Assembly: GCF_002006795.1 (NCBI RefSeq)
Contig: NZ_MVDN01000004.1
Coordinates: 205,458 to 244,849, forward strand
Reading direction: 5' to 3'
DNA length: 39,392 nucleotides
Origin: Wohlfahrtiimonas populi
GTDB lineage: Bacteria; Pseudomonadota; Gammaproteobacteria; Cardiobacteriales; Wohlfahrtiimonadaceae
Below the pieces are notes generated by a model that was given only the letters and a program-made list of their open reading frames with translations, was not told the DNA's origin and ran no database searches. The position numbers and the translations under genes were made by a program. The first letter of the stretch is position 1. The number at the start of each line of letters is the position of its first letter. Shown here in pieces: positions 6,310 to 19,443 of this stretch.

Positions 6310-7710
6310 TTAATCCTCATAATCATCTTTCTTTAATTTTTTAACGCTTTTAGATTTACTAGACTTGTCTTTCAAAGGAGTAGAAGCCAATATTCCTTTA
6401 TTAAGGCTTAGATCTGACATAGATTTCAGCATATTTTGATTCTCAATCATGCTCTTCAAAGCTTTAGAATCCAGCATTCCTTTATTAAGGCTTAGATCTG
6501 ACATAGATTTCAACATATTTTGATTCTCAATCATGCTCTTCAAGGCTTTAGAATCCAACATTCCTTTATGGAAGTTTAGATCTGACATAGATTTCAGCAT
6601 ATTTTGACTCTCAATCATGTTCTTCAAGGCTTTAGAATCCAGCATTCCTTTATTAAGGTTTAGATCTGACATAGATTTCAGCATATTTTGATTCTCAATC
6701 ATGCTCTTCAAAGCCTTATTTTTAGGATAAGCTGTAGTAATAATACGAGACATATCACTATCACGAGCAAGATCTTCTAATACTTCATTAAAGCTAGTTG
6801 TTTTTACTGGCGCCTCATTCTCTAAAACTCCCTTTAATAGCTCTGAATTTTCTACATCTACTTTTTCTGAACTCGCTGGGCCTGCATCTACTAAAGCTGG
6901 CTCTACTGGCTCAGAAGCTTCATTAAGAAGAGCTAAGGCTTCACGAGTATTATCCTGAAAATATTCCACATAATTAGTTGCAAGTTCTTCACAACCATTA
7001 ATAGCACCATTCAATATCGTCATTCTTCTTTTAAGATCTTCATCATTCTGATGATCTGGGTACCTAATAAAATGATCTATTTCGCCCCAAGCTTCATCCA
7101 GAATGGATCTAATTTGAATTTCTAATTTGAACTCATTAGGATAGTTGGCCTCAACAATATAATGTGTTGAACGATATTTAGATTCCTTTCTTTGTTGTGA
7201 ATATTCTAGCTCACGCCCATTGATCTCTTTTTTATGCTTATCTTCATAATAAAACCTCAGATCATCTTCTGGAGCATGATAAATCATAACTTTTTCTTCA
7301 TGACTTATCTTAAAATTCTTACAAATAAAATCATCTACTAATTCCCATTGAAATTTGAATAAATAGATAGCTCTTAAGCCTATTAGATCATTAATGATTT
7401 CCTTATAATTGTTTTCATTAATAGATAAATATTTGGATGACAGGTCTTTATTTTCTTTTGCTTCTTTTCTTTTTCTTACAATTTTTGTGAGCAAATGAAT
7501 CGGGTCTTTAACCCTCCATCTGACAGAATTTATATTATTACAAACCTGCAACTTATTACTTAGATAAATCCCTTCGGTTTCTAATTCTCTCAAAGAGTTT
7601 ATATAATTGTAATAAATTTTTATTAATTCTTCTGCCGTGATATCTGCTTGATCTAACTCATCTGCTGATAAATCTTTAGAATTTTTAAAATGGTTTTGAA
7701 TATCAATCAT
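6310..7710 (-). CDS. RelA/SpoT-domain nucleotidyltransferase with C-terminal tandem 28-aa repeats
   Basis: A 466-residue protein. Residues about 55-215 look like a (p)ppGpp-synthetase-type domain (RelA_SpoT): a basic nucleotide-binding stretch RVKDPIHLLTKIVRK (66-80), DLIGLR (108-113), YRSTHYIV (179-186, with the conserved Tyr) and EIQIRSILDEAWGEIDH (197-213). The acidic residues that hold magnesium (Asp108, Glu197 by alignment) are present, so catalysis is plausible. There is no HD hydrolase domain and no TGS or ACT domain, so it is not RelA or SpoT. Residues 216-331 form an acidic linker. Residues 332-443 are four near-identical 28-residue repeats, and the tail (444-466) is lysine/serine rich. 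It stands alone between gyrA and the heme operon, with no antitoxin-like neighbour. It may be a small alarmone synthetase or a ToxSAS/CapRel-like effector modifying another substrate. The role is inference. Confidence 0.75.
   Translation of the reverse strand: MIDIQNHFKNSKDLSADELDQADITAEELIKIYYNYINSLRELETEGIYLSNKLQVCNNINSVRWRVKDPIHLLTKIVRKRKEAKENKDLSSKYLSINENNYKEIINDLIGLRAIYLFKFQWELVDDFICKNFKISHEEKVMIYHAPEDDLRFYYEDKHKKEINGRELEYSQQRKESKYRSTHYIVEANYPNEFKLEIQIRSILDEAWGEIDHFIRYPDHQNDEDLKRRMTILNGAINGCEELATNYVEYFQDNTREALALLNEASEPVEPALVDAGPASSEKVDVENSELLKGVLENEAPVKTTSFNEVLEDLARDSDMSRIITTAYPKNKALKSMIENQNMLKSMSDLNLNKGMLDSKALKNMIESQNMLKSMSDLNFHKGMLDSKALKSMIENQNMLKSMSDLSLNKGMLDSKALKSMIENQNMLKSMSDLSLNKGILASTPLKDKSSKSKSVKKLKKDDYED
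6382..6717 (-). repeat. Four tandem 84-bp coding repeats
   Basis: Four in-frame copies of an 84-base unit encode the 28-residue consensus KALKSMIENQ-NMLKSMSDLN-LNKGMLDS in the RelA/SpoT-like gene. Copies differ at only a few positions (S/N, N/S, L/F, N/H), so the expansion looks recent. Inside each unit an LKSM motif occurs twice, suggesting an older shorter repeat. The units are probably amphipathic and helical. Confidence 0.92.
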
Positions 7711-13179: not shown

Positions 13180-14529
13180 ATGAAAAAACTTTTGACCAGA
13201 TTGGTAATTTTAGGCGTTGTTGCCTTTATTGCCGTATTTGTAGGTTCTTTCATGATTATAAAAAATCGAACCAAAACATTTACAGAGCCACCTAAAGTTA
13301 CGCAAGAAACATTACAACGTGGTGAGTATGTTGCACGATTATCAGACTGTGCAGCATGCCATACAGCACCTGGCGACCAAGAATACGCTGGTGGCTTAGC
13401 TATGCAAACACCATTTGGTGCAATCTATTCCACAAATATTACACCTGATAAAACAACAGGGATTGGTAATTACACATTAGAAGAATTTGGTAATGCTGTT
13501 AAACATGGTGTTCGTAAAGATGGCGCACCACTTTATCCTGCAATGCCTTATGCTTCTTATACATTAATGCCAGATGAAGACATCGCAGCAATGTATGCAT
13601 ATTTCATGCAATCAGTGCCTGCAATTCAAAAAGAAAATGGCGCATCCACATTCCCTTGGATCATCAGCATGCGTTGGCCAGTTGCTTATTGGCAAATGCT
13701 ATTTGCACCAATTCGTGATTTTGAACAAAACACTCAATTAACAGAATTGCAAAATCATGGTGCTTATATTGTTGAAGGTCCAGGACATTGCGGTGCATGC
13801 CATACACCACGCGGTATCGCTTACCAAGAGAAAGCATTATCCAATGATTCTAGTGATCTATTTTTATCTGGTGCATTAATCGATGGCTGGAGAGCAAAAA
13901 GTTTACGTGGCGAAGGCCAAGGTTTAAAAACTTGGAGCGAAGATGAAATTGTTGAATTCTTGAAAACTGGTCGTACAGATAAAGTTGCAGCGTTTGGTGC
14001 AATGGCTGATGTTGTAGAACACAGCTCACAATACTGGACAGAGAAAGATCTGAAAGCAACAGCAAGTTACTTGAAAACATTGTCGCCTGCACCTAATAAA
14101 TCATTGGAATTAGCAACGAAGAAAGATACAACAACAGATCTATTATTATCTGGCAAATTCATGAATGATCCAGGTGCAGTGTTATATGTGGAAAACTGTA
14201 ATATCTGCCATAGAATGGATGGTGAAGGCGTACCTCGCATCTTCCCTGCTTTGAATCAGAATACAGCGATCACAGCTCAAAATGCACAATCAGTGATTCA
14301 AGTAACGCTAGAAGGCGGAAAAATGCCTAATACACCAGCAGATAGAATGGCATTCGCAATGCCTGGTTTCAATCACCTAAGTGATGATGAAACAGCATTG
14401 GTGATCAACTTCATTCGTAACTCTTGGAACAACGTAGCACCTGAAATTTCAGCACAAGATGTTGCAGAGATTCGCCATTTCTTAGCGAACAAAGCACCGA
14501 ATATTACCTCAGTGAAGGAGGATAAATAA
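13180..14529 (+). CDS. Membrane-anchored triheme cytochrome c
   Basis: A 449-residue protein with one N-terminal membrane helix (about 6-27) and three CXXCH heme sites: CAACH (57-61), CGACH (204-208) and CNICH (340-344). The three-domain layout and motifs such as YPAMPYASYT (Met ligand near 122) match the cytochrome c subunits of membrane alcohol, gluconate and sorbitol dehydrogenases (AdhB/GadC type). No dehydrogenase of that kind is encoded nearby; its partner is instead the TsdA-like protein translated from the next gene, with a TAATG stop/start overlap. It probably carries electrons from that periplasmic enzyme to the quinone pool or an oxidase. SD GGGAG precedes the ATG. The family call is firm; the role is inference. 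Confidence 0.88.
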   Translation: MKKLLTRLVILGVVAFIAVFVGSFMIIKNRTKTFTEPPKVTQETLQRGEYVARLSDCAACHTAPGDQEYAGGLAMQTPFGAIYSTNITPDKTTGIGNYTLEEFGNAVKHGVRKDGAPLYPAMPYASYTLMPDEDIAAMYAYFMQSVPAIQKENGASTFPWIISMRWPVAYWQMLFAPIRDFEQNTQLTELQNHGAYIVEGPGHCGACHTPRGIAYQEKALSNDSSDLFLSGALIDGWRAKSLRGEGQGLKTWSEDEIVEFLKTGRTDKVAAFGAMADVVEHSSQYWTEKDLKATASYLKTLSPAPNKSLELATKKDTTTDLLLSGKFMNDPGAVLYVENCNICHRMDGEGVPRIFPALNQNTAITAQNAQSVIQVTLEGGKMPNTPADRMAFAMPGFNHLSDDETALVINFIRNSWNNVAPEISAQDVAEIRHFLANKAPNITSVKEDK

Positions 14530-15425
14530 TGAAAAAGCGTGTAATTTTATCTTTAAGTGTTGCAGCATTGATGGCAACATCAGCCTTCGCTTACACATTA
14601 ACGGATGCTCAGCCAAAAGAATATGCAATGACAAGCAAAGATGGTCAACCATTGCCTGATTACGTTGTGCCATCTGATTTAGAAATTGCAAAAGAGCCAA
14701 ATGCAGAGCAAATTTTTTATGGTAAAGAGCTTTTAAACTCAACCAAAAGATTATTGCCTGACAATGTTGGTGCAATGATGAACTGTAACAGCTGTCATAT
14801 TGCTGAAGGTAAAGCGGAATTTGGTGCACCTTACTTAACATCGTTGCCACAATATCCAAAAGTGATGCCACGTGCTGGTAAATTAGTGAACATGGAAATG
14901 CGTGTCAACGGCTGTTTCCAACGCTCTATGAACGGTAAGCCTCTCAATCCTGAGTCCAAAGAGATGAAGGCAATCATTGCTTATATGGACTGGCTCAGCA
15001 AAACTCAACCAGAAGGTGCAAAAGTTAAATTAGTTAACTCAGGCCCTGTGGATGAATCATTAGTGCCAAATATTGACAATGGACAAGTTGTTTACGCTGA
15101 ACGCTGTGCATCTTGCCATGGCAACGATGGTGAAGGCTTGAAAGATAAGCGTGGCAACATTGTATTCCCACCATTATGGGGCGATGAATCATTCAACATT
15201 GGTGCAGGTTTAGCACGTACTTATAAAGCGGCTCAATTTGTGAAATACAATATGCCAATGGGTGTTGAAACTACAGGCATTTGGGGCCAAGGCAATCAAG
15301 GCACATTGACAGATCAAGAAGCTGTGGATGTTTCTGAGTACTTCACGCACATGCCAAGACCTGATTTCCCAGGTAAAGTGAATGACTGGCCAAATGGCAA
15401 TAAGCCAAAAGATGCAAGATATTAA
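14529..15425 (+). CDS. TsdA-like diheme cytochrome c (putative thiosulfate dehydrogenase)
   Basis: A 298-residue periplasmic protein with a Sec signal peptide (ends near SAFA) and two heme sites: CNSCH (86-90) and CASCH (193-197). Between them is MRVNGCFQRSMNG; TsdA enzymes have a cysteine in this block as axial ligand of heme 1, here Cys129. After heme 2 come FPPLWG, FNIGAG, YNMPMG (candidate Met ligand) and the C-terminal RPDFPG/DWP block shared by TsdA-type cytochromes. TsdA oxidises two thiosulfate to tetrathionate, or the reverse. The start overlaps the triheme cytochrome stop by one base, with SD AAGGAGG. That SD (14515-14524) is perfectly complementary to part of the small RNA candidate at 16654. 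Another c-type cytochrome role cannot be excluded. Confidence 0.75.
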   Translation: MKKRVILSLSVAALMATSAFAYTLTDAQPKEYAMTSKDGQPLPDYVVPSDLEIAKEPNAEQIFYGKELLNSTKRLLPDNVGAMMNCNSCHIAEGKAEFGAPYLTSLPQYPKVMPRAGKLVNMEMRVNGCFQRSMNGKPLNPESKEMKAIIAYMDWLSKTQPEGAKVKLVNSGPVDESLVPNIDNGQVVYAERCASCHGNDGEGLKDKRGNIVFPPLWGDESFNIGAGLARTYKAAQFVKYNMPMGVETTGIWGQGNQGTLTDQEAVDVSEYFTHMPRPDFPGKVNDWPNGNKPKDARY

Positions 15426-15444
15426 TGCATTAACATAACTGATC

Positions 15445-15473
15445 AGCCATTCTTATGAATGGCTTTTCTTTTT
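15445..15473 (+). terminator. Rho-independent terminator of the cytochrome operon
   Basis: AGCCATTC, loop TTAT, GAATGGCT, followed by TTTCTTTTT, 20 bases after the TsdA-like stop codon. Confidence 0.93.
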
Positions 15474-15529
15474 ATATATCCGAACTCATCCTTTATAATC
15501 TAATATCATGTATCAACTTAGGAAGGATA

Positions 15530-16390
15530 ATGACATACAAAATTTTCTCGACTGTTTTCTGCGCCCTAATTTTAACTGCCTGTAATTCTCTGCCTTCACA
15601 TGAAAAGAAAATCCTAGATGGCGAAGCTTTATATTATAAAGGCGTACAACATCTCTCTGGCCAAGGTGCCCAAAAAGATGAGAAGAAAGCGCTACAATAT
15701 TTCCAAGCGGCAAGTGATAAAGGCTATGTATCTGCTGATAATGCCATTGCTGTAATGTACGATGAAGGCATTGCCGTTAAACAAGATAAAACATTAGCAC
15801 TTAAGTATTATGAAAAAGCTGCTGAATCTAACGAAGAATCTGCACAATACAACCTTGCAGCTTATTATTATGAAAACGATCCCACCAACCCAAAGCTTCA
15901 GCAATATTTAGCTCAACCTGTACCAAACAAAGATGGTGAAGCTTTAAACCTCAAAGCACGCATCCAAATGAATAATGGCAACTTTAAAGAAGCCTATCAA
16001 TTATTCACAAAATCAGCGTGGCAACAAAACCCTGAAGCATTCTTTTATTTATATTTAATGAATAAAGAAGGCAAAGGCACACCACAAAATAATCAGAAAG
16101 CACTCACTTATTTACGCAAATCAGCTGAATTGAATCAACCCAATGCTCTATTTACATTAGGTACAATGTACTTAAAAGGTGAAGGTGTTCAACAAGATAC
16201 AGATAAAGCATTACCATTATTAGAGAAAGCCGCACAAATGGGTCATACAAAAGCTCTTGTGAACGTAGCAATCATGTATCAAAAAGGTGATGGCGTGGAG
16301 CAAAATATACCTAAATCTATACAATTATTAAAAGTTGCGGCAGTACAAGGTGATCAACAAGCCATTCAAGCATTACAGACAATAAAATAA
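15530..16390 (+). CDS. Sel1-repeat (TPR-like) lipoprotein
   Basis: A 286-residue secreted lipoprotein. The signal peptide MTYKIFSTVFCALILTAC carries a lipobox (LTAC, Cys18). The rest is made of about five Sel1-like helical repeats, for example GVQHLSGQGAQKDEKKALQY, GTMYLKGEGVQQDTDKALPL and AIMYQKGDGVEQNIPKSIQL; these fold as a solenoid for protein binding. The reading frame is open from an ATG at 15455, but that codon lies inside the upstream terminator. The ATG at 15530 has AGGAAGG before it and opens directly into the signal peptide, so it was chosen. The partner is unknown; Sel1 proteins often act in envelope or stress signalling. Confidence 0.85.
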   Translation: MTYKIFSTVFCALILTACNSLPSHEKKILDGEALYYKGVQHLSGQGAQKDEKKALQYFQAASDKGYVSADNAIAVMYDEGIAVKQDKTLALKYYEKAAESNEESAQYNLAAYYYENDPTNPKLQQYLAQPVPNKDGEALNLKARIQMNNGNFKEAYQLFTKSAWQQNPEAFFYLYLMNKEGKGTPQNNQKALTYLRKSAELNQPNALFTLGTMYLKGEGVQQDTDKALPLLEKAAQMGHTKALVNVAIMYQKGDGVEQNIPKSIQLLKVAAVQGDQQAIQALQTIK

Positions 16391-16423
16391 CTCATTGATT
16401 TCAATGAAATATATTTATATATA

Positions 16424-16438
16424 AGATAATCATTCTCA
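16424..16438. promoter_or_regulatory. Fur-box-like site
   Basis: AGATAATCATTCTCA matches TGATAATNATTATCA at 12 of 14 defined positions. It overlaps a possible -10 element (TATAAG, 16420-16425) 35 bases after the Sel1 lipoprotein stop codon. What it controls is unclear: a very short transcript ending at the hairpin 16456-16494, or read-through towards the small RNA and bacterioferritin genes. Confidence 0.5.
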
Positions 16439-16455
16439 AATAGTAAGACAAAAAC

Positions 16456-16494
16456 TTGACTACATTATAAATACAAAAATGAAGTCAATTTTTT
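16456..16494 (+). terminator. Weak hairpin with T tract (terminator of the Sel1 gene, or end of a short RNA)
   Basis: TTGACTACAT pairs with ATGAAGTCAA (one A-A mismatch, 13-base loop) and is followed by six T. The stem is AT-rich, so efficiency would be modest. Confidence 0.5.
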
Positions 16495-16619
16495 ATAAAA
16501 ACTTAATCAATATATTTATATTCAATAAGTTATATTGTTTTTAGCATAATTTACCCTATAAATTATCGTTGAACACAAAAAACAAAATGACATTTATCAT
16601 GAATAATATGATTTAAAAA

Positions 16620-16651
16620 TTGACATAAATATGAATTCTGATATTATGTCA
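16620..16651 (+). promoter_or_regulatory. Promoter of the small RNA candidate, with superposed inverted repeat
   Basis: TTGACA (16620-16625), 16 bases, TATTAT (16642-16647) preceded by the extended -10 dinucleotide TG. The arms TGACATAA (16621-16628) and TTATGTCA (16644-16651) form an exact inverted repeat spanning the -35 to just past the -10, a placement typical of a repressor operator. Confidence 0.7.
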
Positions 16652-16653
16652 TT

Positions 16654-16737
16654 CGACATCTAGTTAATTCTAGATGTTCTCCTCCATATCCTCCTTTGGT
16701 GGTTATTTTGCCGAAATTCAGTTTTCGGCTTTTTTTT
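16654..16737 (+). ncRNA. Candidate trans-acting small RNA with two anti-Shine-Dalgarno motifs
   Basis: Predicted transcript of about 84 nt. Its 5' hairpin is ACATCTAG (16656-16663), loop TTAATT, CTAGATGT (16670-16677). Next comes a pyrimidine-rich stretch (16678-16697) holding TTCTCCTCC and ATCCTCCTT. The terminator is GCCGAAA (16710-16716), loop TTCAGT, TTTCGGC (16723-16729), then eight T. Segment 16673-16683 (GATGTTCTCCT) is perfectly complementary to the SD of the first bacterioferritin gene (17140-17150). Segment 16687-16696 (TATCCTCCTT) is perfectly complementary to the SD of the TsdA-like gene (14515-14524). The architecture resembles iron-sparing sRNAs such as Bacillus FsrA (CCUCCU motifs) and, in logic, RyhB. 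I recognise no named RNA family. A 48-codon frame from 16674 lacks an SD and runs through the terminator. Confidence 0.6.
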
Positions 16738-17080
16738 GCCTAAAATTTGGCAAACACAGCTATTCAGCCCTATTTATCGCAACAAGCTTATCTAATTTAA
16801 TCTGTTTTGAGATACTTTGACTTGAAGATGGCATATCATATTTGATCTTCTATCCATCAATTGTTGAATCATTCTTTCCTTTTTTATTGTTGTCATGGTT
16901 ATTTAGTTATTCTTATGATGTTAATGATAAGCTTTTTTATAATAAAAATAAATAGTTATCACTCAAACTGTTCTAGTGTTATTGATTCGCATTTTATGTT
17001 TTGTGTCATATACCTTTCATTGGCAAATGATATTAAGCAACATTTAATCAATATTATCAATAGCTTATTTAAATTAAAAG

Positions 17081-17109
17081 TTAATATTTATCACGTTTTA
17101 ATGTATAAT
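17081..17109 (+). promoter_or_regulatory. Promoter of the bacterioferritin operon
   Basis: TTAATA (17081-17086), 17 bases, perfect TATAAT (17104-17109), about 42 bases before the ATG. The -10 runs into ATGTCAT, the same heptamer found at the -10 of the small RNA promoter. Confidence 0.65.
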
Positions 17110-17150
17110 GTCATCTATGTATTGCCAATATTTAAAATAAGGAGAACATC

Positions 17151-17621
17151 ATGAAAGGAAGTCAAAAAGTTATCGATTACTTAAACGTATTATTAGCAGG
17201 CGAATTAGCAGCACGTGATCAGTACTTCATTCACTCAGCGATGTATCAAGAATGGGGCTATAAAAAATTATTCGATAGAATTCGCCACGAAATGGATGAT
17301 GAAACTGAACATGCACAATTGATCATCTCTCGTTTACTATTATTAGAAGCAACACCAAACATGATTCCTGATAAATTGGACATCGGTGCAGATGTTGTTG
17401 CAATGCTTGAAAGTGACTTACGTTTAGAATTAAGTGTACGTGAAGCATTGAAGAAAGGCATCAAATTGTGTGAAGAAGAACAAGATTACGTAACGCGTGA
17501 TATGTTAGTTGTTCAGTTGAAAGATACTGAAGAAGATCATGCGCATTGGTTAGAAAAACAATTACGTTTAATCAAAACTATTTCTTTACCAAACTATCTT
17601 CAAGACCAATTGAACGGCTAG
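17151..17621 (+). CDS. Bacterioferritin subunit with intact ferroxidase centre
   Basis: A 156-residue four-helix ferritin subunit that aligns nearly gap-free with E. coli Bfr (158 residues). It oxidises Fe(II) and stores iron in a 24-subunit shell. The di-iron ligands are kept: Glu18, Glu51, His54, Glu93 (E. coli 94), and the Glu and His of DTEEDH (E. coli 127 and 130). The heme-ligating Met52 is replaced by threonine in DDETEHA, so this subunit should not bind heme between two copies of itself. SD AAGGAG is seven bases before the ATG. It is followed after ten bases by a second, complementary subunit gene. Its leader can pair with the upstream small RNA candidate. Confidence 0.93.
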   Translation: MKGSQKVIDYLNVLLAGELAARDQYFIHSAMYQEWGYKKLFDRIRHEMDDETEHAQLIISRLLLLEATPNMIPDKLDIGADVVAMLESDLRLELSVREALKKGIKLCEEEQDYVTRDMLVVQLKDTEEDHAHWLEKQLRLIKTISLPNYLQDQLNG

Positions 17622-17631
17622 GAGGAAGTTT

Positions 17632-18096
17632 ATGAAAGTTGATCGCGCTGTTATTCAACAGTTGAACAAAGTATTGGGTCAATATCTTATTTCTATTAAC
17701 CAATATTTTTTACATGGTCGTATTTTAAAAAACTGGGGCTTTGAAGCTTTGGGCAAAACGATCTATAAAAAATCTATTGAAGATATGAAAGAATCAGATG
17801 ATTTGATCGAACGTATTTTATTATTGGAAGGTTTACCAAATCTACAAGATTTGGGCAAAATCTTAATCGGTGAAGAAGTACCAGAAGTAATTAGCAGCGA
17901 CTTAACTTGCGAATATAACAAACGCACAGTTTTAGTTGAAGCAATTCGTGTTTGTGAAGAAAAAGAAGATTATGTTTCTCGCGATTTGTTATCTCATTTA
18001 TTAGATGAAAGCGAAGAACACATTGATTACTTAGAAACACAGCAAGAATTGTTGGCTGAGTTAGGTTCTGAGAAATACCATCAATCTATTATCTAA
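17632..18096 (+). CDS. Bacterioferritin subunit with heme-ligand Met but degenerate ferroxidase centre
   Basis: A 154-residue Bfr paralogue. Met52 (in IEDMKES), which ligates the heme at the subunit interface, is present. The ferroxidase ligands are lost: Glu18 is Tyr, Glu51 is Asp, His54 is Glu, and Glu127 is Ser in LDESEEH; Glu94 and His130 remain. The heme in bacterioferritin passes electrons for iron release, so this subunit likely supplies heme sites to a mixed shell with the preceding subunit. Paired subunits with split functions are known in Neisseria (BfrA/BfrB) and similar bacteria. SD AGGAGGA precedes the ATG. Confidence 0.92.
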   Translation: MKVDRAVIQQLNKVLGQYLISINQYFLHGRILKNWGFEALGKTIYKKSIEDMKESDDLIERILLLEGLPNLQDLGKILIGEEVPEVISSDLTCEYNKRTVLVEAIRVCEEKEDYVSRDLLSHLLDESEEHIDYLETQQELLAELGSEKYHQSII

Positions 18097-18119
18097 TAGT
18101 AGAATATTTATGAGTTACA

Positions 18120-18146
18120 AAAAAACCGCCTATACTGCGGTTTTTT
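18120..18146. terminator. Bidirectional terminator between bacterioferritin and fabF-like genes
   Basis: AAAAAACCGC, loop CTATACT, GCGGTTTTTT. T tracts follow the stem on both strands, serving the convergent bacterioferritin (plus) and fabF-like (minus) units. Confidence 0.9.
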
Positions 18147-18165
18147 ATTGCATATTTTAGATCTA

Positions 18166-19443
18166 TCACTCAGCCCAAGCTTTTAATACTAAAGATGCAT
18201 TGACTCCACCAAAGCCAAAGCCATTACACAATGCATATTGGATTTGCATAGGCTTAGCTTTTTCCATCACAATATTTAAATGTTCTGCTATAGGATCTGG
18301 CTGATGACAATTCAATGAAATTGGAACAATCTGATTTTTAAGCGCCATAGTTGTGAAAATTGCAGCCAAGCCACCAGCAGCACCTAATAAATGCCCAGTG
18401 GAAGATTTAGTCGAAGAAATCGCAACTTTTGCATGATCTCCAAATAAAGCTTTGATCGCTGTTAACTCACCAACATCACCAATTGGCGTTGATGTTGCAT
18501 GTGCATTAATGTAATCAACCTGATTAGGTGAAATACCTGCCATCTTAATGGCATTTTCCATTGATCTTCTTGCACCATTACCATCTTCTGGCGCTGCTGT
18601 AATATGATAAGCATCGGCCGTTGTACCGTAACCTACGATTTCTGCAATCGGTTTTGCACCTCTTTGTTGTGCGTGCTCTAATGATTCAATGACAAGCAGC
18701 CCCGCGCCTTCTGCAATCACAAAACCATCACGATCTTGATCAAATGGACGAGATGCTGTTGTTGGATCGTCATTATGTGTCGTTGTTAATGCCTTTGCAG
18801 CATGGAAACCTGCAATTGCAACCGAATCAATACATGATTCTGCACCACCACACAATGCGATATCAGCTTCATCATTTTGAATTAGACGAACAGCATCACC
18901 AATTGCCTGTATGCCTGCGGCGCATGCCGTAACAGGCGTGCCCATTGGTCCTTTAAAGCCATACTTAATAGAAACTTGCCCAGCAGCTAAGTTTGCTAAA
19001 AATGATGGTACTGTGAAAGGTGATAGTCTTTTATTTGGATTTTCATGTAACGCAATCGCACTATCTTGTATCGTTTTTAAACCACCGATACCAGAAGCAA
19101 TAATCGTTGCTGTCTGCATCTTTTCTTCTTCCGTTTCAGGATGCCAGTTAGCTTCTAATAACGCTTCATTGGCTGCAACAAGCGCAAACAAAATAAAACG
19201 TTCCATGCGCTTTTGATCCCTTTCTGTCATTAAAGCATCAGGATTAAAACCCGCACTTGGATCATTGGCAATTGAATCAACAATGCCTGCAATTTTTACA
19301 GGAAAATCCTTCGACAGATCATCAGGAATCTTTTTTATCCCAGATACGCCAGCAATTAAGCGTTCCCAAGCAACATCTGTTTGACAACCTAATGGAGAAA
19401 CAGTGCCCATTCCTGTTATCACAATTCGTTTACGCTGAGTCAT
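18166..19443 (-). CDS. Beta-ketoacyl-ACP synthase II-like (FabF family)
   Basis: Condensing enzyme that elongates acyl-ACP with malonyl-ACP in fatty-acid synthesis. It has 425 residues and a full-length thiolase fold. The nucleophile is Cys174 in VTACAAGIQ, and the catalytic histidines are His315 in NAHATSTPIGD and His351 in STKSSTGHLLGAAG, with Lys346. The C-terminal FGFGGVN loop is present. The frame can be extended to a TTG at 19458, but that codon forms part of the SD (TTGGAGAAG) of the ATG at 19443, so the ATG was chosen. It starts two bases after the TetR regulator gene and is not in a fab cluster with acpP or fabG. That setting suggests an auxiliary, regulated paralogue rather than the housekeeping FabF; the latter is inference. 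Confidence 0.88.
   Translation of the reverse strand: MTQRKRIVITGMGTVSPLGCQTDVAWERLIAGVSGIKKIPDDLSKDFPVKIAGIVDSIANDPSAGFNPDALMTERDQKRMERFILFALVAANEALLEANWHPETEEEKMQTATIIASGIGGLKTIQDSAIALHENPNKRLSPFTVPSFLANLAAGQVSIKYGFKGPMGTPVTACAAGIQAIGDAVRLIQNDEADIALCGGAESCIDSVAIAGFHAAKALTTTHNDDPTTASRPFDQDRDGFVIAEGAGLLVIESLEHAQQRGAKPIAEIVGYGTTADAYHITAAPEDGNGARRSMENAIKMAGISPNQVDYINAHATSTPIGDVGELTAIKALFGDHAKVAISSTKSSTGHLLGAAGGLAAIFTTMALKNQIVPISLNCHQPDPIAEHLNIVMEKAKPMQIQYALCNGFGFGGVNASLVLKAWAE

Follow-up and report, generated by a model that had tools for sequence, protein, structure and literature searches.

A 760-nt gap in the genome of Wohlfahrtiimonas populi, which extends from a reading frame at 15455-16390 to the first bacterioferritin gene (17151; TIGR00754), contains the anatomy of a small RNA (sRNA) gene on the + strand. 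The question raised by this locus is what kind of regulator such a gene would encode and which mRNAs it would control. The original prediction, made for the window (the whole stretch of 39,392 nt that was analyzed), described a trans-acting sRNA that represses translation through anti-Shine-Dalgarno (anti-SD) segments, hinted at a role in iron sparing and tied the RNA to no known family.

Anatomy and conservation of the gene

The anatomy of a complete sRNA gene was confirmed at 16620-16737 (+), with each of the elements named in the original prediction found in its place (Table 1). The proposed promoter, including its extended -10 TG, agreed with the consensus in 11 of 12 positions and ranked first among the 12 promoter-like sites in 15600-18600, and the proposed terminator, a GC hairpin followed by eight T, was located with both its stem and its T-run. 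The numbers of promoter-like sites (12 compared with 15.3 in shuffled sequences) and terminator-like sites (2 compared with 1.4) in 15600-18600 were not above chance, and it is therefore their conservation that makes the promoter and the terminator convincing. The RNA at 16654-16737 was predicted to fold into three hairpins at -25.4 kcal/mol with a z score of -6.9, and none of the 200 shuffled sequences was equally stable. As for the layout, the 5' hairpin, the C/U-rich segment and the twin motifs were as proposed, whereas the segment, which had been described as unpaired, was not wholly so, because in the predicted fold CCUCCA of motif 1 (16681-16686) forms a stem with UGGUGG (16697-16702), leaving UAUCCUCCUU as a loop in which motif 2 is exposed. 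The linker UUAUUUU is a possible contact site for Hfq.

Table 1. Elements of the sRNA gene in window coordinates
Element	Position	Strand	Description
sigma-70 promoter	16620-16647	+	TTGACA 16620-16625, 16-nt spacer, TATTAT 16642-16647, TG 16639-16640
small RNA, about 84 nt	16654-16737	+	putative start, placed from -10 box and hairpin; end at U-run
SL1, 9-bp hairpin	16655-16678	+	sequence varies among species, pairing retained
anti-SD motif 1, UUCUCCUCC	16677-16685	+	partly inside SL2 stem; identical in 17/17 family copies
SL2	16681-16702	+	predicted CCUCCA/UGGUGG stem, 5 pairs and one U-U mismatch; loop UAUCCUCCUU
anti-SD motif 2, AUCCUCCUU	16688-16696	+	SL2 loop; identical in 17/17 family copies
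U-rich linker, UUAUUUU	16703-16709	+	predicted single-stranded; identical in 17/17 family copies
intrinsic terminator	16710-16737	+	7-bp stem 16710-16716/16723-16729, eight T 16730-16737

The promoter, the motifs and the terminator were expected to recur in related genomes, and this was borne out. Counting the window's own genome, homologues were present in all six genomes of the genus (E ≤ 0.01) and in 17 of the 18 genomes of the family (presumably Wohlfahrtiimonadaceae, with Wohlfahrtiimonas and Ignatzschineria; E ≤ 0.1), the sole family miss being a genome that is 80% complete (G006). Across the order, our own model R1 matched 30 of 32 genomes (E ≤ 0.5; misses in G006 and G018), including 12 genomes of a further family, f3 (conceivably Cardiobacteriaceae), with E values of 1.5e-10 to 5.4e-6, and, weakly, the single genome of f4 (E 0.0025). 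Each of the 17 family genomes had one strong match, to which three of them added a weak second one, and weak second R1 matches (E ≥ 0.005) also occurred in several genomes of the order, the window's own among them. The exact 24-nt core was found at 12 loci in 84,980 species genomes, 11 of them titled Wohlfahrtiimonas or Ignatzschineria and one a MAG titled Lysobacteraceae; the exact core was absent from the viral contig collection, and blastn of the plasmid collection gave no match to the gene.

In the copies compared, conservation is confined to the promoter and the RNA, the core being nearly invariant while the outer hairpins change. The best -35/-10 pair started with TTGAC in all 29 copies (17 of the family and 12 of f3), with 9-12 of 12 consensus matches. 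Identity in 20-nt windows was 0.95-1.0 across 60 nt from the core onward in five of six Wohlfahrtiimonas and six of nine Ignatzschineria copies compared; beyond the gene, it dropped to about 0.2-0.5 in the same five and six copies. In 9 of the 12 f3 copies, the core was retained, with the terminator part down to 0.69; the position of motif 1 reads UAUCUCCUCU in f3 copies, and motif 2 was found in all 12. A TTGACGCA.TGCA.CA-like motif was also noticed by eye over the -35 box in nine of the f3 copies (L064-L075) and in some copies from the wider class (L078, L085, L088); it is absent from the window and possibly represents a shared transcription factor site.

Covariation was evaluated in two alignments. 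In the first (A1; MAFFT, 17 sequences, 11 distinct), the test favors its own structure because this was derived by RNAalifold from the same alignment; 98.3% of the cells paired, compared with 33-52% for slid structures, and two-sided changes were observed at 7 pairs (reached by 1 of 500 shuffles) and in 22 cells, compared with 8.5 in shuffles (reached by none of 500). The count of further pair types in A1, 14 compared with 15.3 in shuffles, showed no excess, being reached by 491 of 500 shuffles. In the second (A2; 30 sequences), which leans toward the structure because the alignment was fitted to the model and in which SL1 is aligned wrongly in some of the f3 rows, two-sided changes were observed at 14 pairs and in 69 cells, compared with 8.0 and 18.0 in shuffles. 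They fell at five (A1) and eight (A2) of the nine pairs of SL1 and at two (A1) and six (A2) of the seven pairs of the terminator stem. The SL2 pairs were nearly unvarying, with a C-G to U-G change at one pair (A2), and covariation is thus neither for nor against SL2.

Comparison with named RNA families

At the curated cut-offs, no Rfam family was reached by the gene. The best match was RF02278 (Betaproteobacteria toxic sRNA), with a score of 31.3 bits, short of the cut-off of 50 (E 9e-5), and its alignment spanned model positions 1-64 of 64, the anti-SD hairpin being followed by the terminator hairpin; NmsRb (RF02877) gave 21.1 bits against a cut-off of 52 (E 0.27). The view that the RNA is not tied to any family was not supported, in view of this full-length match, sub-cut-off as it is, and of a layout like that of the NmsR RNAs of Neisseria. 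The window's only Rfam match at cut-off is a ribosomal S15 leader (RF00114; 37000-37110, -; 52.3 bits) before an rpsO-like gene. Elsewhere in the window, a 466-aa frame at 6310-7710 (-) resembles, by eye, a RelA/SpoT-type synthetase that carries a C-terminal array of near-identical repeats.

The cut-off of RF02278 was passed in none of the 32 genomes of the order, and at a loose E ≤ 1, this model also matched 10 of 14 unrelated control genomes. In an evenly drawn sample of 369 genomes of the class, our own model R2 matched 98 genomes (E ≤ 0.01), and RF02278 matched 103 (E ≤ 0.001), 2 of them above cut-off, and none of the 14 controls; both of the genomes above cut-off were also found by R2 (E 0.002). 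The two models had 77 genomes in common and indicated the same place in 73 of them (75 places) and a different place in 4, an agreement that is partly expected because both describe a C/U-rich hairpin with a terminator, and the hypergeometric value for the overlap is no test of homology. Scanning of 20 of 26 class loci with Rfam at cut-offs returned tRNAs only, and the core reads CTCCTCCATCCTCCTTTGGTGG in 17 of the 28 matches at the 26 loci. Two class loci (L078, L087) hold two copies of a related sRNA side by side, like the NmsR siblings, and one genome (G332) has six R2 matches. In a phylum sample, which was assembled in another way, 14 of 398 genomes matched R2; 12 belong to the class, the window's own among them, and the other 2 to a single genus outside it (E 0.006-0.007).

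According to the available text of PMC5688073, the RF02278 RNAs are the double-hairpin RNAs of Burkholderia (ncS03/05/27/62 and bdhR1), which its authors liken to the NmsRs and whose naming for the inhibition of E. coli growth goes back to Kimelman 2012. The window RNA resembles them in having a CUCCUCCA...CCUCCU...UGG hairpin with an anti-SD loop and a terminator hairpin directly after it. It differs from them in the additional 5' hairpin SL1, in its single strong match per family genome, compared with three to five copies in Burkholderia (PMC5688073, same text), and in belonging to a gammaproteobacterial order, whereas RF02278 is known from Betaproteobacteria. Burkholderia ncS35, which was at first thought to be related, was rejected, since it is not an RF02278 RNA in the passages available from PMC5760752 and PMC5688073. 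Bordetella S17, as described in excerpts of PMC11722255, differs from one Burkholderia double-hairpin RNA by 2 nt in the 5' part; Site 1 of S17S pairs with a leader, repressing an mRNA, and most of the S17S candidate targets match its single-stranded sites.

The NmsRA/NmsRB pair of Neisseria (RF02877; NgncR_162/163, RcoF) has three stem-loops in the identical order in the part of PMC5362039 available, and the folds predicted here follow the NmsR layout of SL1, anti-SD1, SL2 with an anti-SD2 loop and terminator. The same text gives prpB, prpC and gltA as validated targets of NmsRA, and for gonococci, PMC9973317 (in excerpt) describes prpB and prpC as well established among the targets; for the window RNA, prpB and prpC are predicted as targets, and gltA is a lead. 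In contrast, the NmsR genes are tandem siblings, whereas the gene here is single, and NmsRA has a GC-rich discriminator (PMC5362039, in excerpt), whereas GTCATTC of the window is not GC-rich; a GC-rich discriminator (at least 5 of 7 G+C) is present in 10 of the 12 f3 copies. Xanthomonas sX13, compared by partial descriptions only, is likewise a gammaproteobacterial sRNA and has C-rich loops, through which mRNAs carrying G-rich motifs close to the start are repressed, and it differs in its CCCC/CCCCC loops, its length of 115 nt and its Hfq independence. Among the matches listed in the open-access literature, there was no report of a gammaproteobacterial member of the family. In the text accessible there, the co-mention of Wohlfahrtiimonas with "small RNA" concerns mouth communities during decomposition, and the core strings CCTCCTTTGGTGG and CCUCCUUUGGUGG gave no relevant report (one unrelated mouse study for CCTCCTTTGGTGG). 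On the basis of these sequence comparisons, the gene is a stand-alone sRNA gene that belongs to a known kind and represents a branch outside the Rfam cut-offs.

Predicted targets and rival explanations

Complementarity was evaluated as the longest perfect match to the 35-nt core, and the prp operon was identified by its neighbors and by NCBIfam (methylisocitrate lyase and 2-methylcitrate synthase of the window's own genome, G000). Perfect complementarity of 9-12 nt was found in the prpB or prpC leader in 10 of the 11 genomes examined, with seeds that vary by species. In the prpC leader, it was 9 nt in G000, G001, G003 and G005 and 11 nt in G012, G013 and G016; in the prpB leader, it was 10 nt in G009, G010 and G014 and 12 nt in G012 and G013. 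G015 had merely 7 nt in both, and prpD of the same operon had at most 6 nt in the 10 leaders found. The prp count leaves aside G002, in which the leader is truncated; G004, G011 and G017, for which a second citrate synthase was not among the genes listed; and G006-G008. Because several of the genomes are close relatives, the independent prp events are fewer, about six groups by eye, and the seeds differ among most of these groups. Among 312 background leaders, which were taken from reading frames of at least 130 aa in 400 kb of G001 and G013 only, with the best of up to three starts, complementarity was at least 7 nt in 63, at least 8 nt in 10, 9 nt in 2 and 10 nt in none. When the anti-SD blocks were fixed and the other core letters were permuted, 6 of 1000 such cores did as well as the real one in prp complementarity (7 genomes); this test followed an 8-mer scan that had pointed to prpC. 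Thus, the prpB/prpC complementarity exceeds what the anti-SD blocks explain.

The duplex energies were uneven. The duplex with prpC of G000 had -26.8 kcal/mol, with 1 of 161 background leaders of G001 as good; the corresponding ranks were 1 of 161 for prpC of G005, 0 of 151 for prpC of G016 and 0 of 151 for prpB of both G012 and G013. As many as 13 of 161 background leaders were as good as prpC of G003, 34 of 151 as good as prpC of G009 and 12-14 of 161 as good as prpB of the four Wohlfahrtiimonas scored.

The gltA leader had 8-10 nt in all six Wohlfahrtiimonas genomes, 6-7 nt in 11 Ignatzschineria/g3 genomes and 8 nt in G006, the genome in which no sRNA was found. Its pairing did not go beyond generic SD pairing, since 461 of 1000 permuted cores did equally well, and its duplex had -22.0 kcal/mol in G000 (2 of 161 background leaders as good), the rank in G012 being 35 of 151. 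In G000, citrate synthase is also split into two pieces that overlap, the leader being repeated and an N present (L258, G000:C45:49510-51035), probably an assembly fault. The cytochrome c-like gene at 14529 had 10 nt and -20.7 kcal/mol, with 4 of 161 background leaders as good. It is preceded by AAGGAGGATAAATAATG at 14515-14531, which has 10 nt complementary to the SL2 loop and is also present in G001 and G003; coding constraint may explain its presence, because the preceding frame runs into it. A start codon preceded by the complete complement of the SL2 loop (AAAGGAGGATA..ATG) was found at no site in the window's genome and at one in the six genus genomes together. In the 8-mer scan of these six genomes, AAGGAGGA..ATG had 79 sites and GGAGGAGA..ATG had 37, with 23 and 6 for the backward controls, an excess that SD enrichment alone would produce. 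Clustering of the 116 sites, with L103 omitted and frames of <30 aa and duplicates dropped, left 82 frames, among which argC recurred in six of six genomes, a malate/lactate-type dehydrogenase in five, gltA in four, the cytochrome c-like gene (14529 in the window) and a TsuA/YedE-like transporter in three each and prpC in two. Gene names are from NCBIfam, with the dehydrogenase and the transporter below every cut-off and two cytochrome-like proteins unmatched. From complementarity, permutations and energies, prpB and prpC are therefore a supported prediction, and gltA, the cytochrome gene and the bacterioferritin (bfr) genes are leads.

An RNA with such motifs might instead be a global translation brake or "toxic" RNA, which would imitate the tail of 16S rRNA and sequester SD sequences generally, without a narrow target set, and we consider this explanation unlikely. 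CCUCCU of motif 2, in the SL2 loop, is also present in the 16S rRNA tail, and the gltA pairing is at the SD level only. The growth inhibition for which the RF02278 RNAs are named is in line with a toxic RNA, as is the statement in the available part of PMC5362039 that nmsRB plasmids could not be introduced into E. coli. However, the prpB/prpC pairing is above the level of the anti-SD blocks, complementarity of at least 8 nt is limited to the above 10 of 312 background leaders, and S17S, a relative of the RF02278 RNAs, is described in excerpts of PMC11722255 as hardly toxic, with entry into stationary phase only modestly affected.

The iron-sparing role hinted at in the original prediction, in which an FsrA/RyhB-like sRNA would repress the adjoining bfr genes under Fur control, is improbable. 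FsrA of Bacillus and RyhB of E. coli are trans-acting, and FsrA has C-rich anti-SD segments. The bfr genes start 413 nt 3' of the RNA in the window and adjoin it in all six Wohlfahrtiimonas genomes, whereas none lies within 1.5 kb at 11 Ignatzschineria/g3 loci or at 13 further loci of the order. Core complementarity with bfrA was 8 nt in G000 and G002 (11 nt if the SL1 arm opens), and in the window, the duplexes of bfrA (8 nt, -18.2 kcal/mol) and bfrB (7 nt, -19.5 kcal/mol) were equaled by 11 and 5 of 161 background leaders, respectively; however, bfrA pairing was ordinary in G001 and G005 (55 and 98 of 161 as good) and thus good in two of four genomes. G004 and G005 have a 15/19 Fur-box site some 145 nt downstream from the beginning of the core, a raw count, the shuffle comparison covering the window only, whereas the window's best site (14/19, at 16920) lies downstream of the gene, not at the promoter, and is reached by 52 of 300 shuffles. 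Unlike FsrA and RyhB, the window RNA thus has neither a Fur site above chance nor a conserved link to iron genes outside Wohlfahrtiimonas, and an iron regulator was rejected because neighborhood, Fur box and bfr pairing are inconsistent across species.

It is highly improbable that the locus acts without mRNA pairing, whether by encoding a small protein, as the leader of a transcript or as an RNA that binds protein, since the antisense mini-frame ATG GAG GAG AAC after GGAGGAT (16654-16737, -), although present in all 17 family copies, ends after 5 codons in 13 of them and is absent from 13 other copies of the order, a sense frame of at least 8 codons is missing in 19 of 30 copies, and the gene has its own promoter and terminator, unconserved flanks and compensatory changes.

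Proposed role of the RNA

Taken together, the gene probably encodes a trans-acting anti-SD C/U-rich hairpin sRNA of the NmsR/S17/double-hairpin kind, with prpB and prpC as its likeliest targets, that would tune carbon entry. An independent sRNA gene that very probably acts in trans, as originally proposed, is supported, as is anti-SD repression, a mechanism that we infer from the anatomy and the kin. An RNA of about 84 nt would be transcribed from its own promoter to the terminator, and its core, made up of the UAUCCUCCUU loop flanked by UUCUCCUCC and UUUGGUGG, would base-pair at the ribosome-binding sites of a restricted group of mRNAs and keep the 30S subunit from binding, probably together with Hfq. 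The most probable targets would be the methylcitrate (propionate) genes prpB and prpC, a regulon that is a computed prediction, and citrate synthase and others may be reached via strong SD sequences. With such targets, the RNA would tune carbon entry into the methylcitrate and TCA cycles, not iron storage.

Somewhat more tentatively, with the case for and against it nearly balanced, we suggest that an old superfamily of anti-SD hairpin RNAs spans Beta- and Gammaproteobacteria, with RF02278 and NmsR as no more than its named betaproteobacterial branches, and that methylcitrate control has been kept by re-invented seeds that move between prpB and prpC along an invariant core. If this is true, a regulator described from a few Betaproteobacteria would be one branch of a wider set, which in the class sample would amount to the 98 of 369 genomes matched by R2, compared with the 2 of 369 above the present cut-off of RF02278. 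It would also provide a comparative system for the study of target choice, in which a fixed RNA core meets prpB and prpC leaders with species-specific seeds.
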